From: a virus
Virus record (IMG/VR): IMGVR_UViG_3300032334_001337
Span: 1 to 36,876 of that record
DNA: 36,876 bases
Strand: one strand, 5' to 3'
Under the pieces are notes generated by a model. The model saw nothing but the letters and a program-made list of their open reading frames with translations. It had not been told where the DNA came from and made no database searches. The position numbers and the translations under genes are program-made. This document shows positions 4,856-36,876 of the stretch, piece by piece. Each line of letters opens with the position of its first letter. The stretch's first letter is position 1.

Positions 4856-4861
4856 AATTTA

Positions 4862-7889: not shown

Positions 7890-7909
7890 TATTTGCAACT
7901 ATTTTTAAT

Positions 7910-7917
7910 TATTTATT
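7910..7917 (-). promoter_or_regulatory. T4-type late promoter before gene 13
   Basis: AATAAATA on the minus strand fits the cyanophage form NATAAATA of the T4 late -10 element. It ends 20 bases before the ATG of gene 13 and overlaps the TAA stop of the preceding 55-residue gene. It would drive genes 13-14-15-16. Confidence 0.6.
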
Positions 7918-8083: not shown

Positions 8084-8273
8084 TAATTATCTCCTTTAAT
8101 AGATTTTTAATTTCTGAAATGTCGTCCTTCATTTGTTCAATTTCTTGTCTTTGAGATTTTCTACTAATTAGACTATTATTGTACTGATCATATGATACAC
8201 TATCTGTATTAATTATTGCACCACTATATTCATCTCGAAATAAATTTGTATGCCCTTCTACTGGTATCATCAT
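8070..8273 (-). CDS. Small hypothetical protein with C-terminal coiled coil, 67 aa
   Basis: Begins MMIPVEGHTNLFRDEYSGAI and ends in a predicted coiled coil (EIEQMKDDISEIKNLLKEII). The ATG lies within the last codons of the giant upstream gene (4-base overlap, ATGA type) and its 3' end overlaps the next gene by 14 bases, so this is a tightly coupled chain. The N-terminal phrase with RDEYSGAIINTD is familiar from small T4-like cyanophage genes beside gene 13. Possibly a minor virion or assembly factor; function unknown. Confidence 0.75.
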   Translation of the reverse strand: MMIPVEGHTNLFRDEYSGAIINTDSVSYDQYNNSLISRKSQRQEIEQMKDDISEIKNLLKEIINGSK

Positions 8274-15751: not shown

Positions 15752-15753
15752 TT

Positions 15754-17340: not shown

Positions 17341-17357
17341 ATATTGGGTTTTTTTTA

Positions 17358-17365
17358 TATTTATA
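17358..17365 (-). promoter_or_regulatory. T4-type late promoter before gene 8
   Basis: A perfect TATAAATA on the minus strand, 18 bases before the gene 8 ATG. It overlaps the TAA stop of the gp7-like gene (17361-17363). A run of A follows downstream. Expected start of transcription is about 10 bases before the gene. Confidence 0.7.
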
Positions 17366-20300: not shown

Positions 20301-23300
20301 TTCTTTTCTTGTTGCAAGTCTAAATCTAGAATTATCAATTTTGATTGGATAAACTATTGGTGGTAGTAAATTAGTTGTAATACCCAAATAGTTTGCTGTC
20401 AATCCAATTCCAATTGCCGATGTCCCTACACCAACAAAAGTAGATTTTGGTCTGTATATTAATTCTTCTCCTGTACTGAAGAAGTGATTATTAATTGTAA
20501 ACGTATGAGTTGTTAAATCTAGTACATCAGCATCTTCGGGGTCAAAAGTTTTTTTGAAAATTGGAGTTCCCTGATAATTTAAATCAAAGTTTAATCTATC
20601 AACTCTCAATGAATTTAATCCATAGTACTTTGCGATACTTAATGATTCGCTAATTGGAGAGTATAATAACTTAGGTGGTATATTGATTTCATCAACATTT
20701 GTATAAAAAGCTTCAGTAAATGTTAATATCTCAAGATTTTGTCCTCCAGTAGTGGAATCTGGATAAAATCTTAATTTTAATGTATTTCCAGAAAAATATC
20801 CACCAAATGAACCAATTCCGGATGTGCTGCCAATAGAAAGGAATGGATATTGTGTTGTATATACATCAGTTCCGTCATGAATCATTAAAATCTGATGTAA
20901 TGCAGTTGTCTTACCATAACCTACTTTTACTGTAGATTTGAGTGATGAGAATCTTGTGCTATCGAAAGAAATAATATCAGTAGATGTTGAACTTCTAGTA
21001 TATGATGATTCATATAATGCCGTAGATTCTGTTCCATTCCTTTGTCTGGGGAATTTAAATCTATATGTACCAATTCCAACTGCAGTAGATCCAAATCCTA
21101 CTGTTTTACTACTATATCTAACTCTTCCAGTTTTTCCTGGTACGATAGAATTTGTATTTGAAAAATTTAATGATATTATTCCATTAGATAACCGTGGAGC
21201 AAATGATCCAATATAATTACCAACACTGGAATTTGAACCATCAAAATGAAATTCGCTATAATAAACATCTGTTCCATCATGTGCAACATAAAAATCAACA
21301 TAATCCATCTTATTTGTATCGATATCAATTAATTCGACACTAGTGAAAAAGGAATTGACCTTAGACGCTTGGAAAGCAACGACTGCTGTTGTCCCAACAC
21401 CAACTAGTTTATTTGAGGCAGTTAAATCAGTCAATCCAACAGAATAGGTAGAAATTCCAGATTGTGGGGTATTGAATTCAGTTTTTAAAATTTTGATATC
21501 ATAATCAGAATCATATATATCTTCTGGAACAAATTGAAGATAGAAAGTATTAAAACTATCAATAACTCCACTGACTTCTGCAATTGGAGTGTATTTATTC
21601 GATAATAATCCCTTAACAAGGGTATATACATTCTGATTATCATTAATTACGACAACCTCCATCAATTGAATCTCGGGAGCACCAGTAGTAACTTTTCTAA
21701 TTTGAAGTAATGCTTTAGTTAATCTTTTTGTTACATCTAAAGGCAAAATAATGGAAAAAGTTAACTCTTTTTCATCCTCAACACTAGAGAATAGAGGACT
21801 AATATTATCAATTTGTAAAACTCTATTGGTGTTACATTGGATATAATCCGATAATTTAATATTTTTAAATTTAATAACTTGTGTTGCATCTGAAAGAGAG
21901 TCAACATCAATACCAAAATCTATATTATTGATAGTAGTAACATTAGATTCTTGAATATAATCCACAATTGCCGAAATTATGGGATCAGATGCTGTTGCAA
22001 GACCAGATTGGGCATTTTTTATTATTTGTTTGTCAGTAAAATTTTTAGTTCCTATTGTATGAACTAAATTATTTACTGGGGTTACAATTTCTCCCCATTC
22101 TCTTGTACTTTTAATAGTATATGAAAGATTTTGATAATAATCATTGTCTGGAATTACTTGAGTATCTTCACCTATTTTTCCACTATCATCTCTCCATCCA
22201 ATATTTTGCCTATTAGAATAATCAACTACAAAGTTTCCACGGATAATATCAACTTTATTTACAGTTCCAACAGTAAATGATGATGAACCTTTAATTATTT
22301 CATTTGGTGATAAATTATAATTTCCAGATAATCTAACACAATTTCCATTTGATCCAGTTACAACTAAATCAGTTTCTTCAAATCCAAATCCATTATCGGA
22401 AATAATTTTTTCACCAATAAAGAATGTTGATAGTTTTTGAGTAACAGAAAATTGTGGATAATTATCGTATTTAATAAAACTTGCAAATGAGTCTTGTACA
22501 GTTTTAGCAATTCCTGGATTGCCATACAAAGTTGGTATTTTAAATTCAAATTTTCCTGGATTTGATTGTGCATAATATCTGGTAACATCAAAGAATTGAT
22601 ATCCATGATTTTCCGAATTAAATCCTAACCCATCAACATAATTTGTAATTCCCTCAATATAAACCTTATCCCCTGCCACCAGTGGATCGGTAGAAAATCC
22701 TACAATCGGAGTGCTGATGTAGCAAGTTGCTATTCCAGATGTAGAGGTTTCTATTTCATAAATTCTAATACCATTAGTATTATTTGTTGTTCTTAAAGTT
22801 ACTTTTTTAAATGGTAATCCTTTAGGAATTTTATCGATAATAATAGATGAAATAGTACTTCCATTCAATTTACATCTAATTACCCCAGAATTTATTTTTT
22901 CACCAGTATCAGAATTTACGACTACCAAATTTGGTTCTGTCGAATAATTTTTACCACCATTGATAATTTCTACACTTGAGAGGAAACTTGAAGATTCGAG
23001 TGTAACTACTTTAGGAATGAGTGCTTCTGGACTCAGAGTTTTATCCGATGAATATTCAAAACCTTCATTTATGATTCGTATTTGATTTTTTCTTCCAGTT
23101 GAATTTGATCTTGGGACAATATAAGCTCCATCACCACTTAGTGATTTTGTACCAATATATACTGGCAATTCCTTATAATTAAATCCACTTGATATTATTG
23201 ATACTTTACCAATTCCACCTGCGGCAGTTTTTGATGTTGTAGAATATTTTAAAACATCGCAATCATTTTTGTTATATGATAATCTTTCTGGAAAGTTATT

Positions 23301-26300
23301 TAATGAAATTTTAAACGTAGTAGTTCCAACTCCATAAACGGGATATTGTCCTGTATATGCACTGTCTACAAAAGTTATTTTTGAAAAATTCTGCGTAAAT
23401 TCATCTAATTCTAGAGGATTTCCTTGTTTTTCCAAATTATAAAATAATTTTTTTGGTAAATCTGGAGAATAATTTAGTGTTTTTGTAGAAGTTGTACCAA
23501 TTCCGGGTTGTCCAACTGTTCCAATACCTGTGATTGAAAAGGATCCGGAAGTACTTGTAGTTGCTACGGATACAAATTCATTTTTAAAAGCATCATCATA
23601 ATAGAATTTAAAATCATATCCATATAATGAAGAATCTGAAACGTCAAATATAATTTTGTTATTTTTTATAAACTCCAATGGTGGATTAATTAAACTCAAT
23701 TCTTGCAAATCACCACCTTGACTAGAAATTTGTACCGTTCTTGGAGTATTTGAAAAACAGTCATAATAGGTCTCGGATAGTTTAATATTATTATCGTCAA
23801 TTTTACAAACAAAGTATCTTCCAGTTTGTAATCCAGTTGCAACAGTATCTGCAGAATTATAAAATACACTATCTCCAGTTTTATAATTGTGTAAAGGAAT
23901 TGTAATTGTATTATTTTGAGTATCAATCAATGATGCAGAAATATTAATAGGATTTACTAATAGTTTTTTAAATGTATTATTAAATTTAATACGAATTGAC
24001 CCAGAAGTTCCTATACCAACAGAAGTATTTGGATTTACAGTTAATTGTATTATGTCTCCTTTTTGTAAAAGATGTGATGTGGAAACTGAAACTGTAGATT
24101 CTATTTTATTGATATTTGCCTTTACTTGGGTTTCTACAGATTCAAATTGATAAAATTCATTATTAGATCCAGTAACTACCGGAAAGAAAAGACCATTTGT
24201 GGTTGATGTTAATGATCTATTAGTAACGATACCAATGTAATCTTTCGACTTATTGATTGCATATAAAATTTCAGTAGTAGAACTGACAAGTAAACCAAAT
24301 GCTCCACTAGTAGGAGTATCTGCAACACTAATTCCAGTTGTACCAGTTGGTCTTTTAAGGATAACTTTTTGGCCAGTTTGATAGGGATGATTTGGTAAAA
24401 ATATTGATTGAGTTGTAGTTGCTGTTGTATACTTTACGTTATCAATATAGTAATCTTTATTAGATGCTAATCCAGGAGTTGTTCCTATTCCCAATGAAAA
24501 TCTTGGATTAAAGAAAGTTATTTTACTATCTTTTGACTCAAAAGGATCAGTATCTTTATAAATTTCAAATGAATTTGGTAGAAAATAAACTGGAGTTGTT
24601 TCTGTGTATGCTATTCCGCTAGCATTTCTCCTAACTTTTAAAACATTAGGTTGGTCGTAAACATTTAATATGGATAAAATTTCATTTCCAATTTTGATGC
24701 TACTTCCAATAGAAATATTTTTGGGAATTGATGAAAGTGGAATATTGGTAACAATTCCTGTTGTTGATGCATCTCCAATATTTTTTAAGAGAGATGATGA
24801 ATAGGTTGTTAATCCTACTTTATAAAAATCATTTAGTAAGAATAGATTTGTAGAAAGTCCTGAGATAGAAATTGTATCACCATTTGTGAAGTCATGATAT
24901 GGATTTATTACTACCTTTAATTTGTCAAAATTTTCTCTGACAATAAGAGATTCGTTATAACTTATCGTTGAAGTGTTAATTCTTACGATATCTTTTCCGA
25001 ATACTTCAGAAACTTCTGCATATAATCCATATCCTCCACTATTAGTTTGATCAAAATCCAATTTATCATTAACTTTATAACCATCTCCAGGGTTAATAAT
25101 GTCAAAAGAATCTACTTTTCCACGAATTACGGACTCTATAGAAGTTGTTTGATTTATTAATTCATTAGATTCAATAATAAAATCATTACCCGAATATTGT
25201 TGATTCGCATTGTATGGTAAGGTATTTCTTAATAAAGATGTACTATTAAAATCATATGATTGATTGAGAGTAATATTTTCTTTCGCAAATTTGGATCTAT
25301 ATGTATTACCAATAAAATATGGGTATTGTCCTACAGTATCTCCAGAAGGATTTTCTACAGTTGATGCAAAATATGCATAAACGCCATTTGGAAAATCTGG
25401 AGTTATGCAAAATCTTCCGTTATTTTCATCTAGATCTCCAGAATTATTAAAGACATAATCTTCGTTAAAAAATCCAAGGTCAAATCCAGATGGTCTGTTT
25501 ACAATAGTTGTTGAAGCATATCCTGTTGCTAGTCTTTTTATAGTAGAATTTCTATCATTTGGTTTAGAATATCCATATGGTCCATAAATTGGATTTCCAT
25601 CATATGCCCATCCAATAATTGGTGAATGATTAGTATTTGGATCTGGATCATTAAATTGATTTTTTAATGTTTCCGAATATCCGCAGACAAAATATTGTAA
25701 ATTATTATTTGATTTTATTAATATTTGATTCGCTGGGTTTCTATAAAATACATCCTGTATTCCATATTGGTATGACTTATTACTTGATAGTGATCTAACT
25801 TGAGCATCAAAAACTGAATGTTTTCCAGGACGTTCTGCAAGTATTGATGTACTATCAGATTCATATCCAATTCCACCATTAGTGACAATTATTGAAGTTA
25901 TTTTTCCATTAGTAACTACAGATCTAAGTGAAGCTCCTGTTCCCTTTCCGTATACTTTTATGTCTGGATTGGAGATATAATTGGATCCTCCAAAAAGAAT
26001 CAACACACTACTTATTTTTCCATTTACAATAACAGGTTTTAATTGAGCATCAGTTCCTGTTAAAATTTTAATGGTTGGTTTTTTATGATAATTTAAAATA
26101 TTTGATCCATAGTTTGATCCATTTTCATAAACATATGCATCAATTATTTTTCCTCTTACTACTGGTATTGCAGCAATTTGACCTCGTATTTCAGTGCTAC
26201 CAATTCCAATACTAGAATATGTTACCGACAGACTTATTTCTGGATAATTAAATATTTGATATCCTGTTCCCGTAGTAGCGATATTTACATAGTTCTTTCT

Positions 26301-29300
26301 TTCATAATTTTCACTAATAGTTGCACCAATGCCGGCATCACATAATCTAAAGGAATTATCATCTTTCTTAAAAATATAGTAACTATTAAGTGTAGAAAGT
26401 CCAACAATTCCACTAGTTTCATAACTATATCTTACAATTTCTCCATCAGAAAATCCATGATTTGTAAAATTGATAGTATCATAATATGTAGATATTCCTG
26501 TAGGTTTTACAATTAATTTTCTATTTGTGTAACCACTACCACCATCAATTACTTTAATTTCTGCTAGATTATTTCTAATCTCAGTTTTAAACTTTTGAAT
26601 TCCAGAATTACCAATAGTAGTAAATCCAACCGTGTTAATTCCTGAAACAGCATCGATAAATGTTTTGTGAACCTTAATAGTTCTATCATTTAATATTCTT
26701 GCATAATAAACTGAATTGGATATTAAAGTTTGATCCGTGTCAGTATTTGATCCACCAAACGGACCAATACCAATCTCTGGGTTTCCATTACTATCATATA
26801 CTATTTTTTGCCCATTAATTAAATTATGTTTAGTGAGGAATGTTATCCTTTCATTATCAAAGTCTAATCCACCACCTTTAGATATTCTTCTAGCATCAAA
26901 GTCAATTTCTCTTCTATTTTTAATAATTACTGGATTAAAAATAGCACCAGAACCATTTCCACCACTCAAATTTATAGAAACAATCTTATCAATACTAAAA
27001 TCTTGCGGATCAACATATATTTTATCAACTGACCCTTGAACAACTGGTTGAACTAGTGCATTACCAGATACTTGAATTTGTGGAGGGTTGATAACATCAT
27101 AATTAGATCCACCATTCAATACATTAACTTTTTCTAATGGACCGTAATAAATTCTATCATTAGATTTATAATTAAAAATTTCAACTCCATTAATGAGCAT
27201 TCCAACTGGTCCAGGAATGGTTTCATCACCAACAATTTCATCATTTTTTGGATTTAAATTAAATTTTCTTAATAGTGTTTGAGGTGAAATTATTTTATCC
27301 TTTTGGGAACTTAAGATAAATTTATGAGTTCCACTTGGAAGATTTCCTGGCAATTGTCCGAATCTTACACTATTATCCGTGCCAATGAAATTTCTTGATG
27401 TATATAATTTAATTGTTGTTTGTGAAATAACTTCCACATAATATGTACGTGCAGTTAATCCTTCTATTGGAAGATTTGAAAAATTATAATCTATTTCATC
27501 TCCGGTTAAAAATGATATTGGAGTATTAAACTGTAAAATGGAATAATTTTTAGTATCTCCATCATAATTTGATATGCTACTTACAGTATATTCAAATATA
27601 TTTGATTCAATTTGATAAGATGGTAATGAATTTGAAGCTACATACAAGTATTCATTCTTATCAGAATAAACATTTTGAACATCTGCAAAAATATTTTCAT
27701 TTAAACTAGCATCAGTTCCAATTCCAATTGGTATAATTGAACTAGTTGCCTTTTTAATTTTTCTTCTAATATCATATTTTTTGAGAGGATTCAATACTGA
27801 GATATCAGATCCTACTGTTACTGTATTATTTGAAATTGCTGAAATTACTGTGTTGGTTAATTCTGGTACTAAAATTTCAGTATTTCTTTCTAAAAATTCA
27901 ACATAATCACCAACTTTTAATCCAGATTTATAAATGTCAGATCCTGTAACTAAAGAAGATCCACTATAAGATTTTATTTGATATCTTGAACTAGTATTAT
28001 AAATCCAACTATTGGCATTAATTTGTTTGTATGTCTTTTTAGTTGTTGGACTTTCGATTATTTCCCCAACATTCTTTACAGTTACTAAATTTCCCTCTAA
28101 AAGACCACTATCTGGAGAATCTATAATTAGATTTGATAGAACACCAGTTGTTCTAAAACTTACTTTTTTTGTGGTGTCTCCGTTTTCATATCCATAATAA
28201 GTATCATCAGATATGATTGGAGTAGTCTTAGGTATTTCTATTGAAATTGAACTAGAACCATCACTATAACATCCAAAAAATTGATTAATAGATTTACTCG
28301 TATATCTTATTGTATGATTATTTGCATAAAGCTTGCCATAATCATAAAATCCCAAAGTGGAATCAACTGTAATTACTGAAGATCCTGGTACAATATTATC
28401 AATACATCTGGTTGTGGGTGTAATTTTAAAATCTGACAAAGAAGATGAATCTACATCATCATATCCAAGAAAAAGTAATAGTTTATAATAAACCTTTCCA
28501 TTTCTAGTAATTATTTCTACTTCAGAAACAGATGCTGAAATTGTTTCATCATTTTCCGATTTTATAGTTTGACCGACCAATAATGCTGGGTCTCCTGAAA
28601 TCCTTTCCGCAATTATTACCTGTCTACGAATGTAATCGGCATTGGAAGATTTAATTAGAAATCTTTCCATATCAATGATTTCAGGATCTTCTCCATACAA
28701 TACATTGAATAGAATTCTGAAAGATTCTGTGGTTCCTTTTGATTGATAAAATGTTCTTGCTTCTTTTATAAAATTTCCAACATTTAAATCTGAAACAAAT
28801 TCCAGATTTTCCAATCCTGGGGTTAAAGTATATTTTATTTTTTTATAAAATTCTTGTAAAAATAGTACGCTAAGATTTTCTACTACACCTTCATTAGTAT
28901 GAGATGCTGCAGTAGAAGTAGAAAATACTAACTCTTCATACTCCAAATCTTTATGATAATCAGTAACTCCACTGAATCCACGAATACATCCAATAAAAGT
29001 TGTTTCATTTTTATCAGTATATGTAATAATTTCATCATCAATTTTCAACAGTCCATATCTATTAGGAAATCCTTTAGTAGATTCTACAGAAATTTCTACG
29101 TCTGTTGCAGAAATTGAAGAAGATAAAACTGTCGATCCCTTGATAACTTCTGGAATCAGATTGTCTAATTTGAGGTATTGATCTAAATTATCTACAATAT
29201 CAACTGGTCCGCCTTGATATTCTTGAGAAATATAGTATTGTTTTAAAAAGTCCACAGTTTTTGGACTTTCATCCAAAATAAATTCTGGAAGTTGGTTTTG

Positions 29301-29348
29301 AATTATCTGCTGTATTTTAACTCTACTTTCAAATCCCGTAGTTATCAT
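17361..29348 (-). CDS. 7: Giant baseplate wedge protein, gp7-like, with YHYH domain
   Basis: 3995 residues, roughly four times T4 gp7 (1032). Residues about 185-225 (NVGNFIKEARTFYQSKGTTE, then SFRILFNVLYGEDPEI) correspond to the T4 gp7 segment with YSTKGIEASYKFLFKVLYNE, so the N-terminal 250 residues align with the C-terminal part of T4 gp7. Position between genes 6 and 8 agrees. Residues 80-132 hold a 'LKIDDEIITY ... CIRGFSG ... H' module, repeated in diverged form elsewhere. Near residue 1245 is GWAYDGNPIYGPYGY, the mark of a YHYH domain. Numerous Gly-Tyr units occur (for example IDGGSGYTNRKLIVKP, IIVTNGGIGYESDS, IVNGGSGYVSPSIIAPS). A Shine-Dalgarno AGGGA lies in the end of gene 6. gp7 organises the T4 wedge; the extra 3000 residues probably form surface-exposed parts. 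Confidence 0.85.
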   Translation of the reverse strand: MITTGFESRVKIQQIIQNQLPEFILDESPKTVDFLKQYYISQEYQGGPVDIVDNLDQYLKLDNLIPEVIKGSTVLSSSISATDVEISVESTKGFPNRYGLLKIDDEIITYTDKNETTFIGCIRGFSGVTDYHKDLEYEELVFSTSTAASHTNEGVVENLSVLFLQEFYKKIKYTLTPGLENLEFVSDLNVGNFIKEARTFYQSKGTTESFRILFNVLYGEDPEIIDMERFLIKSSNADYIRRQVIIAERISGDPALLVGQTIKSENDETISASVSEVEIITRNGKVYYKLLLFLGYDDVDSSSLSDFKITPTTRCIDNIVPGSSVITVDSTLGFYDYGKLYANNHTIRYTSKSINQFFGCYSDGSSSISIEIPKTTPIISDDTYYGYENGDTTKKVSFRTTGVLSNLIIDSPDSGLLEGNLVTVKNVGEIIESPTTKKTYKQINANSWIYNTSSRYQIKSYSGSSLVTGSDIYKSGLKVGDYVEFLERNTEILVPELTNTVISAISNNTVTVGSDISVLNPLKKYDIRRKIKKATSSIIPIGIGTDASLNENIFADVQNVYSDKNEYLYVASNSLPSYQIESNIFEYTVSSISNYDGDTKNYSILQFNTPISFLTGDEIDYNFSNLPIEGLTARTYYVEVISQTTIKLYTSRNFIGTDNSVRFGQLPGNLPSGTHKFILSSQKDKIISPQTLLRKFNLNPKNDEIVGDETIPGPVGMLINGVEIFNYKSNDRIYYGPLEKVNVLNGGSNYDVINPPQIQVSGNALVQPVVQGSVDKIYVDPQDFSIDKIVSINLSGGNGSGAIFNPVIIKNRREIDFDARRISKGGGLDFDNERITFLTKHNLINGQKIVYDSNGNPEIGIGPFGGSNTDTDQTLISNSVYYARILNDRTIKVHKTFIDAVSGINTVGFTTIGNSGIQKFKTEIRNNLAEIKVIDGGSGYTNRKLIVKPTGISTYYDTINFTNHGFSDGEIVRYSYETSGIVGLSTLNSYYIFKKDDNSFRLCDAGIGATISENYERKNYVNIATTGTGYQIFNYPEISLSVTYSSIGIGSTEIRGQIAAIPVVRGKIIDAYVYENGSNYGSNILNYHKKPTIKILTGTDAQLKPVIVNGKISSVLILFGGSNYISNPDIKVYGKGTGASLRSVVTNGKITSIIVTNGGIGYESDSTSILAERPGKHSVFDAQVRSLSSNKSYQYGIQDVFYRNPANQILIKSNNNLQYFVCGYSETLKNQFNDPDPNTNHSPIIGWAYDGNPIYGPYGYSKPNDRNSTIKRLATGYASTTIVNRPSGFDLGFFNEDYVFNNSGDLDENNGRFCITPDFPNGVYAYFASTVENPSGDTVGQYPYFIGNTYRSKFAKENITLNQSYDFNSTSLLRNTLPYNANQQYSGNDFIIESNELINQTTSIESVIRGKVDSFDIINPGDGYKVNDKLDFDQTNSGGYGLYAEVSEVFGKDIVRINTSTISYNESLIVRENFDKLKVVINPYHDFTNGDTISISGLSTNLFLLNDFYKVGLTTYSSSLLKNIGDASTTGIVTNIPLSSIPKNISIGSSIKIGNEILSILNVYDQPNVLKVRRNASGIAYTETTPVYFLPNSFEIYKDTDPFESKDSKITFFNPRFSLGIGTTPGLASNKDYYIDNVKYTTATTTQSIFLPNHPYQTGQKVILKRPTGTTGISVADTPTSGAFGLLVSSTTEILYAINKSKDYIGIVTNRSLTSTTNGLFFPVVTGSNNEFYQFESVETQVKANINKIESTVSVSTSHLLQKGDIIQLTVNPNTSVGIGTSGSIRIKFNNTFKKLLVNPINISASLIDTQNNTITIPLHNYKTGDSVFYNSADTVATGLQTGRYFVCKIDDNNIKLSETYYDCFSNTPRTVQISSQGGDLQELSLINPPLEFIKNNKIIFDVSDSSLYGYDFKFYYDDAFKNEFVSVATTSTSGSFSITGIGTVGQPGIGTTSTKTLNYSPDLPKKLFYNLEKQGNPLELDEFTQNFSKITFVDSAYTGQYPVYGVGTTTFKISLNNFPERLSYNKNDCDVLKYSTTSKTAAGGIGKVSIISSGFNYKELPVYIGTKSLSGDGAYIVPRSNSTGRKNQIRIINEGFEYSSDKTLSPEALIPKVVTLESSSFLSSVEIINGGKNYSTEPNLVVVNSDTGEKINSGVIRCKLNGSTISSIIIDKIPKGLPFKKVTLRTTNNTNGIRIYEIETSTSGIATCYISTPIVGFSTDPLVAGDKVYIEGITNYVDGLGFNSENHGYQFFDVTRYYAQSNPGKFEFKIPTLYGNPGIAKTVQDSFASFIKYDNYPQFSVTQKLSTFFIGEKIISDNGFGFEETDLVVTGSNGNCVRLSGNYNLSPNEIIKGSSSFTVGTVNKVDIIRGNFVVDYSNRQNIGWRDDSGKIGEDTQVIPDNDYYQNLSYTIKSTREWGEIVTPVNNLVHTIGTKNFTDKQIIKNAQSGLATASDPIISAIVDYIQESNVTTINNIDFGIDVDSLSDATQVIKFKNIKLSDYIQCNTNRVLQIDNISPLFSSVEDEKELTFSIILPLDVTKRLTKALLQIRKVTTGAPEIQLMEVVVINDNQNVYTLVKGLLSNKYTPIAEVSGVIDSFNTFYLQFVPEDIYDSDYDIKILKTEFNTPQSGISTYSVGLTDLTASNKLVGVGTTAVVAFQASKVNSFFTSVELIDIDTNKMDYVDFYVAHDGTDVYYSEFHFDGSNSSVGNYIGSFAPRLSNGIISLNFSNTNSIVPGKTGRVRYSSKTVGFGSTAVGIGTYRFKFPRQRNGTESTALYESSYTRSSTSTDIISFDSTRFSSLKSTVKVGYGKTTALHQILMIHDGTDVYTTQYPFLSIGSTSGIGSFGGYFSGNTLKLRFYPDSTTGGQNLEILTFTEAFYTNVDEINIPPKLLYSPISESLSIAKYYGLNSLRVDRLNFDLNYQGTPIFKKTFDPEDADVLDLTTHTFTINNHFFSTGEELIYRPKSTFVGVGTSAIGIGLTANYLGITTNLLPPIVYPIKIDNSRFRLATRKEYANAGIYVTFRSFGEGNAHELEMVKKNEKSFITIANLAQYPLSYTSNLQTLVGNPGGGIGIGNSIIALSGIGTVIIENIIKVDDEYMKVVNVGFGTTSVGPITFTGNVPLVQVIRGFCGTASSAHSNGSQARIYKGSYNIVGNEIFFTNPPRGNIFDLVGFDNSNLVRERAKFNGRVFLRKNYRTNTVYDDFSDKFNGVNNIFTLTNTGINTVGLGTTAGNGLLFINGIFQTPTTENATFSNYEIIEDYNAGISSVRFTGITSSNGSLIISQSDQNQNQLPRGGLIVSLGSTSGLGYAPLVGLSVTAILNGSGTIVGFGTTGNFGSGYRAPVSIRVMDENHTGAAATITATVGVGGTLRLNIVNGGSGYVSPSIIAPSPSYENMPVVGISRLGIGATTTTGVGLLMNLEIGPSNRVGIGSTLFEVSSFKITRPGYSFKIGDEFTVAGLVTARSLNSPIEPFKLTVLEVFNDTFAAIQFGEMNYIDSIRRLQDGTRTRFPLYYNSELLSFETNRDDPDSSLIDFDSLLVIYINGILQDPKSAYNFSGGTSFTFTTPPKAEDEVSIFFYTGTRNEDSVRVSVNELIQPGDTLQINSNNNISGTITQDNRIVYDIIGSDRLQTNTYTGKGIDQINYKPIYWTKQKRDYLINEVVVPKSRDSIESQVYPTAKIIKNFSSSDTELYLDNAQFFDYEEESPVSTFDCLIVNDENTFIPAEVTANVTIDGIVGSLTIVQSGGGYIGTEVSVKISPPKLIGVGIGTTATAKVKITNGRLTTPITITNSGLGYESGSPPKIIVPSPSTSTNIELLRDVSIVRGFDGVITGIATAPGLNGASLALKFTIFRDPPLYSDLQVGYPIYINNTRVGNGVTSVYNSNSNVIGIGTICLDNIYYVDAIDTTLGIITCNIRSNTSIVGIATTGTNNYPVGRFSWGKLSGFERTNNISIAVTGKTLDVGLTTFASVQRRGYGLRNTGSLKKRVMGL

Positions 29349-29349
29349 A

Positions 29350-31260
29350 CTATTCCCTCGTTAAATCCCCATTTGAATAACTTGATCTATATGAATCCTT
29401 CGTAAATACAACTCCGGAAATGTCTTCACCAGATGCAATAACATCCTTTACCATATTTATTTGACTTTTTGAAATGTCAAATACAAGGTACAAATCTTTT
29501 AATCCAATTACATCATTGGATTCTGGATATGCTTGAATTTGTATAATGTTATTTGGAAGTAAAGTTGAATTTATATTAATAGTATTAATCATAATTTCAC
29601 CAGTTTCATAATTAATTGTTCCTGCCGATTTAATGACAGTTACGGATGAATTTTCTTGAGGAGGAGAAGAGTTAGTTGATCTTATGATAGATAAAACTCC
29701 AGTTTTATTATCCGAATTTGGTATATCGGTAAAATATACGGTGTTTGGATCATTATTAATAGTAAATCCAGTAGATTTGATATTATAACCTTCAGATTTT
29801 ATGTGAAATTTATTACCAAAGCAGAGTTCATATTGTGTAAATTGATTCAATAGTACCTTTAAATCTCTTCTAATTCTAACTTTTGTAATATTTGAAGTGA
29901 TTGAAATATCAGTATTATCAATTACTTGAAGTATTTTACTATATTTAAATCTTCCACCAAATTTATTAAGATCGATGGAATTTGCATATGTCGTCAATAA
30001 AGATTGAATCTTCGATTTTAATTGCTCTATATTTGAAACCTTAGAGTAATCATAATAAACTGAAGAGTCAATTTCCACATAAAGAATTTTAAGATCAACA
30101 ATTTTCTGATTAATACCAGAAATGCTATATTGCTTTAATTTTCTAAGAATTTGTTCCTTATCAAAATCAGAAACAAAATTTCCATTTTTTGGTTTTATAC
30201 TAATTGTTACTGATCCATATTCTGGTGGATCTAGTTCTTCTCCACCAACAACCGAAATTGATTCTGCATTTGGATAGATTATATTTTGAATTATAGCCTC
30301 ATAATCTTTTGCAGTAACTGCTCTATATTGTGAAGAATATAATCTAGGTGCAAAGTACTTAATGGAATCTACTGCTTCGATTTCTGATCCATTTCTAGAT
30401 GATACATTAGTTGTGATATTGATTGTATTTGTTGGAACTACAGGAACATTACTTGCATTTCTGAATGTTCCGGCAAATGTAAATTCCGACGCTCCATTAC
30501 CACTCGAACCATCCGTAACAATATAATTAACTGTTATAATAGTCCCGTTTATTAATTTTTTACCAAATCTTCCATCACCAAAAATAAGTTCATATTTCTC
30601 GTCTTTAACTTCTTGAATTAAATATATTTCAGATAATGAATTAATATCTACAATATTATCTACCAATGAATATTTTCTTGTAGTTCCAGAACTTCCTGGT
30701 CCTTTAACAGTTACAACAATTGAACTTGTATCAATATATGAGTTATCAAGAATAAACTTTTGATCCAATGATCCATTAACAGTAAATTCTTTGGTTAAAA
30801 ATGTTCCTTGATAAATTGGCAGATTAGTAAATGTTGCCGTACCATTTACCACATTTTGTGAAACATTTTCAGAAATTGAAAATATATACGAACTCGAATC
30901 TACCGTACCAACGCATACCAAACCAGCCTGTAAGGATATTGTTGGAGTTTCCGAACTAGTTTGTACAGTAAACGATACACGTGCCTCTGAGGACTTTCTA
31001 GACCTAGGTACATAACCAATATTTCTGGCAAGAGAAACTACGTTTTCCCTAACCGTTGCAGAATCCAAAAAGGATTCATTTACAACCATATTAGAGTTAA
31101 AAGCAGTAATATAAGTGTTATACGCTAGAGTATCAATTACAATGGAAAAATTAGACCCCTCAAAGTCAAAATCCGTGAAATCGGAATTTGCACGGATATA
31201 ATCCTTGATAGAGGTCTTTATCTGATCAAAATCTAGATTTGTAAACTTAGTAAAAGGCAT
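29350..31260 (-). CDS. 6: Baseplate wedge protein gp6
   Basis: 636 residues (T4: 660). The N-terminal MPFTKFTNLDFDQIKTSIKD with AFNSNMVVNESFLDSATVRE and VVSLARNIGYVPRSRKSS is the gp6/baseplate J-like signature. Later come a KYFAPRLYSSQYRAVTAKDY segment and AESISVVGGEELDPPEYGSV, also J-like. gp6 dimers form the inner ring of the baseplate and contact gp25, gp7 and gp53. The start is one base after the gene 25 stop and the stop is one base before the gene 7 ATG. The GAGGCAAC stretch in the end of gene 25 is a weak Shine-Dalgarno. Length and motifs look intact. Confidence 0.93.
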   Translation of the reverse strand: MPFTKFTNLDFDQIKTSIKDYIRANSDFTDFDFEGSNFSIVIDTLAYNTYITAFNSNMVVNESFLDSATVRENVVSLARNIGYVPRSRKSSEARVSFTVQTSSETPTISLQAGLVCVGTVDSSSYIFSISENVSQNVVNGTATFTNLPIYQGTFLTKEFTVNGSLDQKFILDNSYIDTSSIVVTVKGPGSSGTTRKYSLVDNIVDINSLSEIYLIQEVKDEKYELIFGDGRFGKKLINGTIITVNYIVTDGSSGNGASEFTFAGTFRNASNVPVVPTNTINITTNVSSRNGSEIEAVDSIKYFAPRLYSSQYRAVTAKDYEAIIQNIIYPNAESISVVGGEELDPPEYGSVTISIKPKNGNFVSDFDKEQILRKLKQYSISGINQKIVDLKILYVEIDSSVYYDYSKVSNIEQLKSKIQSLLTTYANSIDLNKFGGRFKYSKILQVIDNTDISITSNITKVRIRRDLKVLLNQFTQYELCFGNKFHIKSEGYNIKSTGFTINNDPNTVYFTDIPNSDNKTGVLSIIRSTNSSPPQENSSVTVIKSAGTINYETGEIMINTININSTLLPNNIIQIQAYPESNDVIGLKDLYLVFDISKSQINMVKDVIASGEDISGVVFTKDSYRSSYSNGDLTRE

Positions 31261-31261
31261 T

Positions 31262-31663
31262 TTATCTTGTTGCCTCTAATATGAATGTATATTGTTGTGT
31301 TGGAATTTCTTGACCGATAATATTAAAGGTAACTGTTACTTCAAATTCATTTGTATCTGGTTTTGGCAAAACATCGACGATAACATCATTAACTCTTGGT
31401 TCAAAATTATTAATAGTCGTTTTAATTTGTCTCTCAATTATAGATGCCGAAGCATAATCTACAAAATCAAATAAACTTGCACGAACATTAGAACCAATAT
31501 TAGGATCAAAAAATCTTTCAGATGGAATCGTTTCAATCAAATTGCGAATTGATCTTATAATTGCATTTTGATTTTTTAATATTGGCAAATCCTTTGTCAC
31601 AGGATGTGGTTCAAAGGATAAACTAATATCTTTAAAGAATCTAGATATCCTTACAATTGGCAT
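31262..31663 (-). CDS. 25: Baseplate wedge protein gp25
   Basis: 133 residues (T4: 132). Family features: an early FKDISLSFEPHPVTKDLPIL segment, NAIIRSIRNLIETIPSERFF followed by DPNIGSNVRASLFDF, then a helix IIERQIKTTINNFEPRVNDV. gp25 is a lysozyme-like-fold wedge subunit present in all contractile injection systems. It binds gp6 and the sheath. It opens the late operon 25-6-7-8 behind a NATAAATA match 23 bases upstream of the ATG. No obvious Shine-Dalgarno in the short leader. Confidence 0.93.
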   Translation of the reverse strand: MPIVRISRFFKDISLSFEPHPVTKDLPILKNQNAIIRSIRNLIETIPSERFFDPNIGSNVRASLFDFVDYASASIIERQIKTTINNFEPRVNDVIVDVLPKPDTNEFEVTVTFNIIGQEIPTQQYTFILEATR

Positions 31664-32352: not shown

Positions 32353-32372
32353 GGCATAAAAATCCTAAAAAT

Positions 32373-32828: not shown

Positions 32829-32836
32829 CTGTCGAA

Positions 32837-32956
32837 TTACTTTTTCTTTCTAGCGTTTGATGCTTTCTTTTGAGCACTAGATCTACACTGACCCGTTGCT
32901 TTTCTTTTATCACCATTACCAAATGTGGGATTCTTTTTTGGTTTTTTAGGTGCCAT
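32837..32956 (-). CDS. Very small basic protein, 39 aa
   Basis: Encodes MAPKKPKKNPTFGNGDKRKA, then TGQCRSSAQKKASNARKKK. About a third of the residues are Lys or Arg, and it has one Cys and Pro/Gly turns, suggesting nucleic-acid binding. The ATG overlaps the stop of the 50-residue gene by one base (TAATG), which strongly supports translation. The next gene starts 8 bases on. I recall similar tiny basic proteins in cyanophages; function unknown. Confidence 0.7.
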   Translation of the reverse strand: MAPKKPKKNPTFGNGDKRKATGQCRSSAQKKASNARKKK

Positions 32957-33108
32957 TATTTGCCCTGACCTCTATATTTCTTACGAGCCCCATTGCGAGA
33001 AGAAGCGGCGTATTTAGTTCCCATGCCATCTCCTTGACGAGACTTTTTAGGAGGACCCGGAATATAAGAACTGTTCTTATTTAGTCCACCCTTTGCTTTT
33101 GTTGCCAT
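32956..33108 (-). CDS. Small basic protein, 50 aa
   Basis: Encodes MATKAKGGLNKNSSYIPGPP, then KKSRQGDGMGTKYAASSRNG and a basic tail ending KKYRGQGK. It is rich in Gly, Lys and Arg with no hydrophobic core, so probably disordered and RNA- or DNA-associated. The Shine-Dalgarno GGAGA in the end of the upstream gene lies about 8 bases before the ATG. It overlaps the downstream 39-residue gene by one base. The 'SSYIPGPPKK' phrase is familiar from T4-like cyanophages. Function unknown. Confidence 0.72.
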   Translation of the reverse strand: MATKAKGGLNKNSSYIPGPPKKSRQGDGMGTKYAASSRNGARKKYRGQGK

Positions 33109-33113
33109 AATTT

Positions 33114-33281
33114 TTAATCTCCGATAATTTCAGTTTGAAGTTCGCTTGGATTTGGAGAACCTGTTTCGTAGTATTGCAACGCCAAGTCCTCCATAGTATC
33201 AAAATATTCTTCCTGTGATAGGTCCGAATAAATCTTACGACCTTTACAAAGAATATTGTAACGTTCGTGTTTATACGTCAT
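33114..33281 (-). CDS. Small hypothetical protein, 55 aa
   Basis: Encodes MTYKHERYNILCKGRKIYSD, then LSQEEYFDTMEDLALQYYET and GSPNPSELQTEIIGD. Acidic overall apart from the basic first 16 residues. It begins 8 bases after the glycosyltransferase-like stop and ends 5 bases before the next ATG, supplying that gene's Shine-Dalgarno from its last codons. The compact two-helix look recalls small cyanophage proteins with a 'hydrophobic-polar-Tyr-Phe-Asp' helix. Function unknown. Confidence 0.72.
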   Translation of the reverse strand: MTYKHERYNILCKGRKIYSDLSQEEYFDTMEDLALQYYETGSPNPSELQTEIIGD

Positions 33282-33289
33282 TTTTTAAC

Positions 33290-34051
33290 TTAGATTACTC
33301 TTGTCTTCTCGTGACCAACTCTGATACGAGGATCGCACCAAATTTCAAAGCCTGCTTCTTTTGCATCGAGACAGAATGACACATCTTCTCCACACATGTC
33401 CTGAACTTCTCCAGATTCAAATACCTGCATCTTTGGTGCAAACCATGGATACTTGATGCCTTCGTTTTCAAATACGCCATGTTTGATCAGCAACCATCCA
33501 AATCCTGCATAGTCTACGGTGAAAGGCTTCCGACGCTTCGAAATGCTCTCAAGAGTTTCGTGATTCATGACTCCACCATTATTGCGGAAATCATCTTCCT
33601 CCATCCAGTGTGCAACAGAAGTAGTATGACCATCTTCTGTACAATACCATCCAGAAGCAATATCTTTATCCATCAAAACAAGTTGATAGAATTTTTCAGT
33701 ATTGAAGATGATATCAGAATCAATCCAAAGTTGCCAATCATACTTCAGTTTCCCATCCCATGGAAGTTGATCAGGTCCTCTTAGCACATTTGCACCTAAA
33801 CATTTGCATCTTGCAAAGTTTACCATGGAGGAATAGTCTTGAGAAATTTGAATACTTCCGCCATTCTGAACAATATCAAAACACAGTTGCACAAAGTTCT
33901 TCAAGTATGCATAGGAAACTCCTCTGCCAGGAAGACAGAACACAACGGATTTTCCTCTGATCATCTCTCTTGCTAGATTGTAATCCCACTCTTCCCCACT
34001 ACCAGTACTTACGGTGGGGGTTTTTGCTTTTACAGTAAATCCTTTAGCCAT
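33290..34051 (-). CDS. GT-A-type glycosyltransferase-like protein
   Basis: 253 residues. After a short variable start comes a Rossmann-like strand (KSVVFCLPGRGVSYAYL, about 34-50), a polar helix, then WQLWIDSDIIFNTEKF with the DSD triad at 111-113, the metal/nucleotide-sugar motif of GT-A enzymes. The C-terminal part holds VDYAGFGWLLIKHGVFE, GEDVSFCLDAKEAGF (221 onward) and a final DPRIRVGHEK with His247, placed as the metal-binding His of such enzymes. This pattern fits family-2-like glycosyltransferases found in cyanophages. Substrate is unknown; candidates are host surface polysaccharide or a phage virion protein. A strong sigma70 promoter precedes it, so it is probably an early gene leading a run of small genes. 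No Shine-Dalgarno in the A-rich leader. Confidence 0.75.
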   Translation of the reverse strand: MAKGFTVKAKTPTVSTGSGEEWDYNLAREMIRGKSVVFCLPGRGVSYAYLKNFVQLCFDIVQNGGSIQISQDYSSMVNFARCKCLGANVLRGPDQLPWDGKLKYDWQLWIDSDIIFNTEKFYQLVLMDKDIASGWYCTEDGHTTSVAHWMEEDDFRNNGGVMNHETLESISKRRKPFTVDYAGFGWLLIKHGVFENEGIKYPWFAPKMQVFESGEVQDMCGEDVSFCLDAKEAGFEIWCDPRIRVGHEKTRVI

Positions 34052-34074
34052 AAAGTTTGTTTGTTTACTTCAGT

Positions 34075-34103: not shown

Positions 34104-34115
34104 TTTAGAATATGA

Positions 34116-34292
34116 TCAGTCATCTTCTCTTTCTGACAATACGAGTTCTCCACACTCAACTTTGAGATTTAAATTTGTGTCCTCGTACCATGAAAGATCA
34201 TTCACAATCCATTCTGGAATTGTAACATAATAGTCTCCACTAATGGGATCGACTTGTAGAGGTTGAAAATTTTCTCCGGAATTTTTTCTCAT
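34116..34292 (-). CDS. Small AbrB/MazE-like protein
   Basis: 58 residues from the ATG at 34292. The core DPISGDYYVTIPEWIVNDLS then WYEDTNLNLKVECGELVLSE has the swapped-hairpin pattern of AbrB/MazE/SpoVT DNA-binding domains (strand, 'IP' turn, 'W-x-x-G/E-D' segment, strand). Such single-domain proteins are usually dimeric transcription regulators or antitoxins; no toxin gene is adjacent, so a regulator is likelier. The frame extends nine codons to a TTG at 34319, but the sigma70-like promoter at 34321-34350 would start transcription inside that extension, which favours the ATG. Gap to the next promoter is short. Assignment is by pattern only. Confidence 0.6.
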   Translation of the reverse strand: MRKNSGENFQPLQVDPISGDYYVTIPEWIVNDLSWYEDTNLNLKVECGELVLSEREDD

Positions 34293-34320
34293 TTTTGTAT
34301 ATGAATTTACCTTTTTCAAA

Positions 34321-34350: not shown

Positions 34351-34497
34351 TCTATGAGGAATGTGTTTTACATCTCCGGAAATTTTTGTGTCTTGTGATA
34401 TATAAAGGTCGATTTTGGTTCGTTGTAGGTTAGGGTAGTTAGCCGTTTTTATATACGCCCCCATGACCCCGAAGACGCCCCCCGTCGCCCGTAGGGT

Positions 34498-34559
34498 AAC
34501 TGCCAAACACGAACGAAAGTAGGGGCGCTAAGTATAAACAACTGCGCCCCACGAACGAA
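34498..34559. repeat. 20-base direct repeat, two copies 42 bases apart
   Basis: Copies at 34498-34517 and 34540-34559 share AACTGC, a 4-base variable part, and CACGAACGAA (16 or more of 20 bases). A shortened third relative, CACGAAAGGT, is at 34597-34606. Each copy is followed 10-17 bases later by CTAAGTAT. The pattern resembles iterons or regulator sites; role unknown. Confidence 0.65.
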
Positions 34560-34759
34560 TACCTAACTGCCCCGCACTAAGTATGATTTAGAACCGCACG
34601 AAAGGTAGAACGCGATCATGGATTCTGCCTCACTAAGTGTAGAGAACGATTGCTCCCTTAAGTCACCAGAATAGGGCAAAGTGTAGACAATAGTGAACAT
34701 GATCAGAATGCAGTGGGAAAGTATAAAGAAAGGGGAGGGATTGCCTCCCCTAAGTGTAA
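34530..34759. repeat. Six-copy AAGTRTRA array
   Basis: Octamers fitting AAGTRTRR/AAGTRTRA start at 34530, 34579, 34635, 34679, 34719 and 34752, spaced 49, 56, 44, 40 and 33 bases. Four are preceded by CT (CTAAGT). On the minus strand they read YAYACTT, some like a -10 box (TATACT, TACACT). The intervals match neither a CRISPR array nor a coding repeat. Confidence 0.55.
34724..34751 (-). terminator. Intrinsic terminator after the 112-aa gene
   Basis: Minus strand: perfect 8-bp stem AGGGGAGG/CCTCCCCT with loop CAATC, followed by TTCTTT. It begins 10 bases after the stop codon of the gene ending at 34761. Confidence 0.8.
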
Positions 34760-34760
34760 C

Positions 34761-35099
34761 TTACCGTGCCCAAGTTACGCGGATGAACTTATCACCCTCT
34801 GTAACTTTAGCGGCGCCAGTTGCAACCTCTTTAGATTTTTCTGCCTTAAGTTGTATCTCAAGACAGGCGATTGCGTCACTGTATGTAACTTTATCGCGGG
34901 AGGTTAGTGATACCAACCCCCAGCAAGTGCGCTCGCTGGATACATCGGCGGCAATCATAATGCCTGCCAATTCTTCTCTCAAACGCTTGCATTCTGCATC
35001 CGCTTCTTTATACTTTGCATCAGCGGTTGCCAGTTTGCCCATAAGGTGCTCGATGGTATCGGATACGATAGCGGCGGGCAGATCGTAGGATTGTGCCAT
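34761..35099 (-). CDS. Hypothetical coiled-coil protein, 112 aa
   Basis: Starts MAQSYDLPAAIVSDTIEHLM. Residues 15-48 form a charged helix (KLATADAKYKEADAECKRLR) with heptad-like spacing, followed by a compact part (SSERTCWGLVSLTSRDKVTY) and a Lys-rich end VTEGDKFIRVTWAR. It uses more G/C-rich codons than the phage genes to the left. It stands alone with its own terminator. The ATG has no Shine-Dalgarno; the leader is C-rich with ACCACACCC. A 131-codon frame on the opposite strand is low-complexity and rejected. I do not recognise the family. Confidence 0.65.
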   Translation of the reverse strand: MAQSYDLPAAIVSDTIEHLMGKLATADAKYKEADAECKRLREELAGIMIAADVSSERTCWGLVSLTSRDKVTYSDAIACLEIQLKAEKSKEVATGAAKVTEGDKFIRVTWAR

Positions 35100-35230
35100 G
35101 ATTCGGGATTGTCAGGGGGGGGTGTGGTTGTTTCCCCCTGATGCAATTATTCTACAGCATAGGATGGGGGGATGGGGGGCATCCTGACAGAATCGGGACA
35201 GTTTCCGAACTGGCACAAGGGCCTGTAGAT
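35100..35230. other. Gene-free leader with G-rich hairpins
   Basis: Upstream region of the 112-residue gene. An 8-bp inverted repeat TCAGGGGG/CCCCCTGA (35112-35142) encloses a G/T loop, and a second, GGATG/CATCC (about 35161-35183), encloses two G6 runs. A weak -10-like TAGAAT (minus, 35149-35154) could start the gene's transcript. The G runs could form a quadruplex on the plus strand. Confidence 0.4.
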
Positions 35231-35260
35231 AATAAAAAAGGGAGGCGATTGTGCCCCCCT
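35231..35260 (-). terminator. Intrinsic terminator after the gp88-like gene
   Basis: Minus strand: 8-bp stem AGGGGGGC/GCCTCCCT (one G-U pair), loop ACAATC, followed by TTTTTTATT. It starts about 10 bases after the stop at 35271. The loop shares CAATC with the neighbouring terminators. Confidence 0.82.
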
Positions 35261-35270
35261 AAGTTATATT

Positions 35271-36002
35271 TTATGCTGCAACTTTATTCTTTTGATTGTA
35301 TCCAGCATGGAGACCTTTTGCCCTTCGTTGTCTAATAGCGGCACCTAATGCACTGCCTTTAGGTTGTGTTCCATGCACAAGTAGGGCGAATGGTTTATCA
35401 CCAAAACAGTGACTATCATCATGATCTACACTTAACCCCAGCGATTCTGCCTCTTGTTCATCAGCAACCACTACAGAATAGCGTTGGAATGTATCAATTA
35501 GGTGATCGAATTTGCCACCCTTAGATGCAGTGATGTAGAAGTTTTCTGGCAGTTTCAAGTATAAAAACAGTTGCAAACTTTTGGTGTAAGCGTAAAACTT
35601 AAGGTCAGGATTGCGCTGTGCAACTTGAATCCAAGCATCGAGATAAACACCAGAGAAAAAGTCACCAGACTCGTGAATTCTCACAAGTTTAGTATTTTTA
35701 GTGCGGTTAAGTTGAATGGAATTGTGAATCAAATCGACCACAGATCCATCTTGAATAGCATTAACAATCATTGAAAGATTGTCTGCCCGATTGTTAAAAA
35801 CCTGATCATATTGCACCTCTGAAGATGCAGCGAAACAACGGAAGATAGTTTCCTTACTATCAACAATCGAACGCTTGCCATTGTTATTAACAACGGCGAA
35901 ACTTTTACAATGAAGCGCACCGGGGCAAGTTTTACCGGCCGGCAGACTAAAAACTAGGGTGCCTTTAGAGAGTTTGGCGTTACCCTTAGAGAAGTGAAGC
36001 AT
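35271..36002 (-). CDS. Gp88-like phage protein with conserved Cys motif
   Basis: 243 residues. The N-terminal LSKGTLVFSLPAGKTCPGAL then HCKSF and a later FRCFAAS give the Cys pattern CPGA-x2-C ... C. A central VRIHESGDFFSGVYLDAWIQ and PDLKFYAYTKSLQLF follow, then FDHLIDTF, SVDHDDSHCFGDKPFALLVH and GTQPKGSALG near the end. This arrangement is that of the gene-product-88 family (PF17338) of mycobacteriophages and other phages and plasmids, whose function is not established. Four or more conserved Cys could bind a metal or iron-sulfur cluster. It is monocistronic between a weak promoter and a strong terminator, and it lacks a Shine-Dalgarno. G/C content exceeds that of the phage structural genes. 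Confidence 0.72.
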   Translation of the reverse strand: MLHFSKGNAKLSKGTLVFSLPAGKTCPGALHCKSFAVVNNNGKRSIVDSKETIFRCFAASSEVQYDQVFNNRADNLSMIVNAIQDGSVVDLIHNSIQLNRTKNTKLVRIHESGDFFSGVYLDAWIQVAQRNPDLKFYAYTKSLQLFLYLKLPENFYITASKGGKFDHLIDTFQRYSVVVADEQEAESLGLSVDHDDSHCFGDKPFALLVHGTQPKGSALGAAIRQRRAKGLHAGYNQKNKVAA

Positions 36003-36033
36003 AGCGGTGTCCGGGTGTGGTGGGGACTCCCAT

Positions 36034-36042
36034 AGAATAGCA
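36034..36042 (-). promoter_or_regulatory. Possible extended -10 for the gp88-like gene
   Basis: Minus strand TGC-TATTCT (36034-36042) fits an extended -10 (TGn plus 4 of 6 bases). It would give a leader of about 25 bases to the ATG at 36002 and lies just beyond the hairpin that ends the next unit upstream. No -35 is apparent. Confidence 0.35.
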
Positions 36043-36044
36043 CG

Positions 36045-36068
36045 GAAGGGGGGGGGATTGCTCCCCCC
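36045..36068 (-). terminator. Terminator-like hairpin after the 157-aa gene
   Basis: Minus strand: G6 stem, loop AGCAAT, C6 stem, 25 bases after the stop at 36093. The loop region again contains GCAATC. The tract after the stem is CCTTCC, not U-rich, so termination may be weak. Confidence 0.55.
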
Positions 36069-36092
36069 GACTGATCAGTGTTGCTTATGCAA

Positions 36093-36566
36093 TCACTTCC
36101 ACAAACCTTCTTTAACTAATTGCATCACAAGTGCGTTAGCAATCTTACCACAATGGGGGCAAATTGTAGCGTACTTAATTTCACTTTTTAGAGCATAATA
36201 GTTGCTAGAACGATTATGACCAAACTTAAAACGATAGATTGCACTAACTGTTTTAAGAAGTTGGCGCTTCTCAATGTCACCTTTAACCCAACGATAAGCG
36301 GCGTTAAAAGGTAAAAAATCAGCGTAACCTTTACGGCAATACTCTAACAAATTGACAACCTTTTTGGCAATTTCATCACCTAATTGTGGGGTCAATTCTG
36401 CCAGAACAATCTCATTAAAGGAAAGAAGTTGGGGAGGTTCATTGTTAGCAACTGGAGCAGGTTGCACCGTTACTTCACTCAAACCAAGCAGAAAGTTGCC
36501 AATCTCAGTATAAGAACCGTTGACGGTAACAGTGTTGCCGTTGTTGGTGATTGTGAGAGTTTGCAT
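36093..36566 (-). CDS. Hypothetical protein with C-terminal CxxC, 157 aa
   Basis: Starts MQTLTITNNGNTVTVNGSYT, continues EIGNFLLGLSEV, then a helical core (VVNLLEYCRKGYADFLPFNA, then YRWVKGDIEKRQLLKTVSAI). Near the end is a TICPHCGKIANAL segment with one CxxC, possibly half of a zinc site. The frame extends upstream to 36755 from a GTG, but that extension reads as low-quality protein and lacks a ribosome site, so the ATG at 36566 is preferred. The leader is ACCACCACAAGATC, resembling those of the two other right-hand genes. It follows its own promoter and precedes a terminator-like hairpin. I do not recognise the family. Confidence 0.6.
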   Translation of the reverse strand: MQTLTITNNGNTVTVNGSYTEIGNFLLGLSEVTVQPAPVANNEPPQLLSFNEIVLAELTPQLGDEIAKKVVNLLEYCRKGYADFLPFNAAYRWVKGDIEKRQLLKTVSAIYRFKFGHNRSSNYYALKSEIKYATICPHCGKIANALVMQLVKEGLWK

Positions 36567-36697
36567 GATCTTGTGGTGGTGGGCGGCGTCAGTGGTGCGC
36601 CGTTGGTGAAAGTATGCCCCATCAGAACCGACCAGATCCAGCGGCCTTGTGCCACTTGTGAAACTGGTTTTTGGTGGCGGTTTTTGATCGGTGCCAT
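36479..36697 (-). CDS. Possible small upstream overlapping ORF, 72 aa
   Basis: Starts MAPIKNRHQKPVSQVAQGRW with AGGA six bases before the ATG, the only clear Shine-Dalgarno in the right-hand region. It runs into the 157-residue gene in another frame; its C-terminal half is probably a shadow. It could be a leader peptide, a frameshifted gene fragment, or chance. Confidence 0.2.
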   Translation of the reverse strand: MAPIKNRHQKPVSQVAQGRWIWSVLMGHTFTNGAPLTPPTTTRSCKLSQSPTTATLLPSTVLILRLATFCLV

Positions 36698-36781
36698 GGT
36701 ATCCTAAGGGGACAATCGAAACCAACGGGGGAAGGGTATCCCTACTGAACAACACATCGCCACTCCCCCTGCCATAAAATA

Positions 36782-36790
36782 ATTATAACA
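36782..36790 (-). promoter_or_regulatory. Extended -10 promoter at the start of the 157-aa unit
   Basis: Minus strand TGT-TATAAT (36782-36790), a perfect -10 with an extended TGn. No good -35; that position falls in the terminator next to it. The expected start is near 36775, giving a leader of about 209 bases to 36566 or 78 to 36697. Confidence 0.5.
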
Positions 36791-36796
36791 ATATAT

Positions 36797-36830
36797 TAAG
36801 AAAAGTGGATCAGGCACCACCCTGACCCAC
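36797..36830 (-). terminator. Intrinsic terminator at the right edge
   Basis: Minus strand: 10-bp stem GTGGGTCAGG/CCTGATCCAC (one G-U), loop GTGGTG, followed by TTTTCTT. It ends an unseen unit off the right edge and lies directly before the -10 at 36782. Beyond it, 36831-36876 holds nothing recognisable. Confidence 0.7.
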
Positions 36831-36876
36831 GCTAACCCACTCACCTACGCTATGATTATCTGTTCTCTTACGCGCA

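Follow-up and report, generated by a model that had tools for sequence, protein, structure and literature searches.

In T4-like cyanophages the g25-g6 structural operon is preceded by a hypervariable, gene-sparse region, and the right end of this viral sequence is such a region. The whole stretch of DNA analysed, IMG/VR record IMGVR_UViG_3300032334_001337 (36,876 bp, class 'linear'), is referred to as the window, and the 2.4 kb at its right end as the island. The type of region is already known, and the window gives a further example of it. Where the island begins, the composition step falls on a non-coding sequence that is among the best conserved in T4-like cyanophages, and the suspicion about the right end of the window is removed: it is genuine phage DNA. 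Our explanation as a whole, to which we give a probability of roughly 0.6, is that the island is part of a hypervariable region of early type and that the boundary element would be cis-regulatory for the late operon. If the element plays a part in packaging or in the late switch, it would give a handle on infection timing in abundant ocean and lake viruses, and also on the gene turnover concentrated beside it.

Gene layout of the window

Judged by its genes, the window is part of the genome of a T4-like cyanophage (Kyanoviridae): it contains a T4-type structural module, and its nearest relatives are in Kyanoviridae. The best complete relative is the freshwater Synechococcus phage S-SRM01, also of Kyanoviridae. 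The late structural module lies in the left 31 kb, and the accepted genes left and right of the junction are all on the minus strand, so the strand is unchanged at the junction (Table 1). From its sequence and the annotation of S-SRM01, we read the 67-aa PHROG 661 protein as a putative AbrB-type DNA-binding protein.

Two observations may be added on the left-hand part. Between g25 and the junction lies an S-adenosylmethionine decarboxylase-type gene (PHROG 3125, 32011-32352), an auxiliary metabolic gene that is in S-SRM01 too. The baseplate region holds one ORF of 3995 aa (17361-29348), and the 'baseplate wedge initiator' of S-SRM01 is similarly large.

Table 1. Features of the window, in order of position
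Feature	Position	Strand	Remarks
Late structural module	4433..31663	-	Terminase small subunit, tail sheath stabilizer, head closure, baseplate wedge genes, gp6, gp25
First compositional step	32948..34051	-	Takes in the 253-aa gene (GC3 0.35); from change point and GC3
Conserved 253-aa gene	33290-34051		Left of junction; GC3 0.35
67-aa PHROG 661 protein gene	34116..34319	-	First gene 3' of boundary element
Conserved non-coding boundary element	34399..34463	-	C/G tract, TAWATAAAAAC box, ACTACCCTAACCTACAA core, variable block, G-C-G-A-G, AT-rich tail
Core 17-mer ACTACCCTAACCTACAA of element	34423..34439	-	
TATATAAAAAC box of element	34445..34455	-	Fixed spacing 5' of core; putatively T4-late-promoter-like
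45-aa gene	34563..34700	-	Found in related form in 35 of 81 related records; most changes fall at third codon positions
Terminator-like hairpin	34731..34751	-	After 112-aa gene
112-aa gene	34761..35099	-	Weak, sub-threshold Pfam DUF7307; codon-position changes
Candidate early-type promoter of 112-aa gene	35156..35219	-	TGTGCC ... AACTGTCCCG N32 TATGCT
Terminator-like hairpin	35239..35260	-	After GP88 gene
GP88-domain gene, 243 aa	35271..36002	-	Pfam PF17338, E 1.8e-42
157-aa gene	36093..36566	-	Homologue in S-SRM01
Early-type promoter of 157-aa gene (predicted)	36611..36673	-	AAGTGGCACA N31 CATACT; matches S-SRM01 site 5' of homologue

The junction and the change of composition

Is the junction natural? 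The change of composition is sharp, and a preliminary description of this DNA had raised the possibility that two unrelated sequences were falsely joined during assembly, or that the right end comes from a different replicon. Both are refuted by comparison with other phage sequences. A contig from another metagenome in IMG/VR (L190) matches window positions 32836-36875 with 88.7% identity over 4107 bp, unbroken across the junction. The junction is repeated in other contigs: in 17 of the 65 GP88-bearing contigs examined, the boundary element follows GP88 on the same strand at a distance of 0.35-4.1 kb. In these 17 the GC content is 0.49 upstream of the element and 0.37 downstream, and the upstream value is the higher in 13 of the 14 with enough sequence. 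The isolate S-SRM01 (Serangoonvirus, MW015081, 78-98 kb) has the gene order of the window, GP88 - element - PHROG 661-type protein - 253-aa gene - g25 - g6, and a similar GC step, from 0.31 in the structural part to 0.40-0.48 further upstream. Its 157-aa gene is likewise preceded by a homologous promoter of early type. Unlike the window, it has an additional stretch of about 3 kb separating GP88 from the element, in which an HNH endonuclease and short genes lie, and its element core has two changes. The junction had been recommended for a search in related genomes, and it is present in L190, in the GP88 contigs and in the gene order of S-SRM01. The comparison shows that the junction is natural phage DNA and excludes an artefact; the chance that it is a false join or a piece of another replicon is negligible.

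The GC content is 0.457 at 34463-36876 and 0.318 at 1-34397, where the richest stretch of the same length reaches 0.363. The rise that had been placed at about 34440 is therefore real, but it starts earlier. The single best change point inside 31,000-36,876 is 34,455, while over the whole window it is 32,948 (about 32.95 kb), with the GC peak beyond 34,455. The long G and C runs described on the right were found again: runs of at least five number 12 on the right (2.3 expected) and 9 on the left (7.0 expected), and runs of at least six number 7 and 0, respectively. Codon use had been said to shift as well. This check was run, and it bears the statement out for the island genes, whose GC3 is 0.34-0.47, but not for the position of the shift, since the 253-aa gene left of the junction is already at the level given in Table 1; the five other left-hand genes tested have 0.15-0.20. 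The composition shift is thus made of two steps, the first one inside the conserved side.

The island as part of a variable region

What kind of region is the island? In all of the five complete cyanophage genomes compared, the non-coding fraction of the 5 kb upstream of the element is 13-28%, whereas the bulk of these genomes has 4-6%, and the annotations of that upstream stretch in other cyanophages show many short hypothetical genes. When relatives are compared with the window, the flank is aligned in most of them and the island only in patches, and the gene content varies. The hyperplastic or ORFanage regions of cyanomyoviruses (PMC2984593, PMC4503421) are like the island in their short genes, their variable content and their position between conserved modules. 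The ORFanage of S-PM2 also sits in the stretch upstream of g25, but about 10 kb further upstream than the island, and the described hyperplastic region, unlike the island, is between g15 and g18. A variable region by the element accounts for the tendency of metagenomic contigs to break there. As a warning for the interpretation of such contigs, ends within 2 kb of the element are upstream in 68 cases and downstream in 6 (n=115 IMG/VR contigs), and the window likewise ends 2.4 kb upstream of it.

The four island genes (157 aa, GP88, 112 aa and 45 aa) are found in dozens of related phage contigs. Changes by codon position against L190 back the 45-, 112- and 157-aa genes. The same count was set aside for the GP88 gene, being distorted by a gap, and that gene is backed by its family PF17338 and by 33 aligned relatives. 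Its predicted structure is confident (pLDDT 89); against the PDB the model gave no match below E 0.001, and weak matches to TIM-barrel-like and radical-SAM folds. An ORF of 54 aa that overlaps the element (34342-34506) was rejected as a gene, with 8, 7 and 12 changes by codon position against L190. As the preliminary description had stated, the island lacks T4-type core genes, with no Pfam or PHROG match to any of them. Terminator-like hairpins follow two of its genes, the 112-aa and the GP88 gene. Many relatives conserve the non-coding leader upstream of the 157-aa gene (36567-36876) at about 70-83%, and S-SRM01 holds a further copy of one part (36643-36809), adjoining GP88.

Could these 2.4 kb be an accessory island recently acquired from a donor of higher GC? 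The shift in GC and GC3, the gene content that varies between relatives, and the presence of GP88 relatives in mycobacterial and Streptomyces phages would all suit such an origin. However, the GC step is repeated at the same element in many phages, and the composition change begins 1.5 kb earlier, inside a conserved gene. The closest GP88 relatives are cyanophage proteins (S-SRM01 70%; the nearest IMG/VR contigs 85-90%), and the matches to plasmids are short pieces at chance level. A recent acquisition is thus improbable. Of the earlier wording, 'accessory' describes the island well, variable and free of core genes as it is; 'acquired', in the sense of a discrete insertion, finds no support, with a region of low coding density recurring at this place in five of five complete genomes and island genes that recur themselves.

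Putative early-type promoters

From words enriched in these regions a promoter type was traced, consisting of GTGACA, about 8 bases, AAGTGGCACA, 28-33 bases and a TATAAT-like box. A model of it was built from 88 sites in five other genomes, with the window left out. Its two best minus-strand matches in the window both fall in the 2.4-kb island, directly 5' of the 157-aa gene (score 23.3) and the 112-aa gene (17.4), whereas the best of 60 shuffled islands scored 15.9. The type is thus predicted upstream of two of the four accepted island genes. In the five genomes, 31 of the 127 same-strand matches above threshold are within 10 kb upstream of the element, while about 6.6 would be expected by length. 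The island genes are probably expressed early, because two of them have upstream a promoter type that is concentrated in this region of other cyanophages.

Doron et al. 2016 (ISME J) reportedly described a novel, cyanophage-wide regulatory element of early genes in Syn9 and P-TIM40. By that description, it resembles the motif here in being recurrent, cyanophage-wide and upstream of early genes, and the GTGACA...AAGTGGCACA...TATAAT motif may be the same element. TAYACTTAG-like words, perhaps further promoter boxes, also occur on the minus strand at 34528-34760 (three exact), with none in the left 34 kb.

The boundary element

The element was first seen when the island was compared with phage records, as short matches at 34398-34460 in many cyanophage records, outside annotated genes. 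A BLAST search with its 36-base consensus gave 301 places in 300 records, of which about 292 are cyanophage and the other eight not; it is almost always single-copy per record. A gp25 homologue was found in 418 records (about 409 from cyanophages or marine viruses), so about 70% of such phages carry a detectable element. With a profile built on 90 distinct copies, the element in five complete genomes scores 53-72, and no other place in them exceeds -18. The two core bins reach a pairwise identity of 0.93 and 0.80, compared with about 0.25-0.30 for the flanks, as calculated from 11 isolates that were themselves found by similarity to the element or region; the IMG/VR search, by exact match, selects for the 17-mer and so does not bear on core conservation. 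The variable block is interchangeable, with several types, and is followed by a nearly invariant G at +29 and then by the AT-rich tail.

In every annotated genome inspected, including Syn9 (element at 53.50 kb), P-SSM2 and P-TIM40 (at 56.94 kb), the element stands 5' of a gene block that leads to g25 or to large structural genes. A strict tie to the neighbouring 67-aa PHROG 661 gene was rejected, a related ORF being within 1.5 kb in only 77 of 132 loci. An RNA hairpin or Rfam family was also ruled out: no Rfam match to a structured RNA leader was found at the element, and its hairpin score of 2.87, against 2.79 +/- 0.28 in permuted controls, indicates no conserved paired stem.

T4-like late promoters (NATAAATA) have been reported for cyanophages (PMC2984593). 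The element resembles these and the T4-type late promoter (TATAAATA) in its TATA-like box, its fixed spacing and its location upstream of a late operon. It is unlike them in its box, TAWATAAAAAC, and in its long invariant core, which is absent from other late promoters because it is single-copy. The TATA-like boxes of the element agree with TATAAATA at only 6-7 of 8 positions. A T4-type late promoter was not recognised at the element: in the copy of the window the best match to the octamer downstream of the core is 6 of 8, and NATAAATA-like octamers at +33 occur in only about 9 of the 90 distinct elements.

A possible role of the element

Then why is such an element kept at the border? One explanation is that it controls the late operon. 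The island would be the near end of the hypervariable, gene-sparse region 5' of the g25-g6 operon, and its short genes, with their own promoters and terminators, would be transcribed early by host RNA polymerase from promoters in which the GTGACA...AAGTGGCACA motif lies upstream of a TATAAT-like -10 box. At the border, the conserved and usually single-copy element would precede the gene block that runs into the late operon. The element would separate upstream transcription from the late operon and help to start or control transcription of the latter. The natural junction, the recurrent GC step, the early-type motif in the island and the fixed place and copy number of the element are observed; from these sequence features we infer the timing of expression and the regulatory role. 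The regulatory reading fits best because of the place and strand of the element, its TATA-like boxes and the early-looking island genes. Against it, the TATA-like boxes fit TATAAATA only in part, and the core exceeds by far the length required for a promoter and occurs once, while late promoters are many. There are also points against the explanation as a whole. In S-PM2 the matching place holds no more than a degenerate copy; the early motif occurs elsewhere in the genomes too, on both strands; S-SM2 has one site of it only in the last 10 kb before the element; and 29 of 96 loci show no higher GC upstream of the element.

A single copy, a fixed place and a long invariant core would also suit a packaging start (pac-like) at which terminase begins the headful, with DNA gained and lost just upstream. 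Metagenomic contigs end nearer to the element on its upstream side (median distance 1.4 kb on that side and 8.1 kb on the other; 99 of 115, p about 1e-15), but the ends are diffuse over 0-3 kb with no sharp peak, as strain variability predicts. The record of the isolate S-E7 was opened 105 bp from the core and has an end overlap of 127 bp, though the length of this overlap resembles an assembler k-mer. By the S-PM2 ORFanage, a 2-3 fold read density has been read as terminal redundancy (Puxty et al., PMC4503421); yet S-PM2 lacks the element in intact form, and about 10 kb separate its degenerate copy from the ORFanage. We consider a packaging start unlikely. A replication origin, for which the single copy and the A-rich box adjoining the C/G tract would speak, is quite improbable. 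The cumulative GC skew has its minimum at the element in five genomes rotated to start there, but with the mean removed the extrema are 4-62 kb away, and the GC3 skew of co-oriented genes has no consistent sign change. The first skew signal is therefore a product of coding density and rotation, and no switch of strand asymmetry was found at the element in these five genomes.

Under the preferred, cis-regulatory reading or that of packaging, a broader proposal may be made, at rather less than even odds: the 65-bp element may be an undescribed, nearly family-wide cis-acting site, for the early/late switch or the start of packaging, which fixes the place of gene gain and loss. Its novelty is uncertain. 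No description of it was found in the literature compared, to which the Syn9 and P-TIM40 transcriptome of Doron et al. 2016 did not belong, and this is weak evidence of novelty. In S-PM2 the degenerate element (L184:25134) is followed by GATAAATA, a natural variant that could be used to probe the role of the element.
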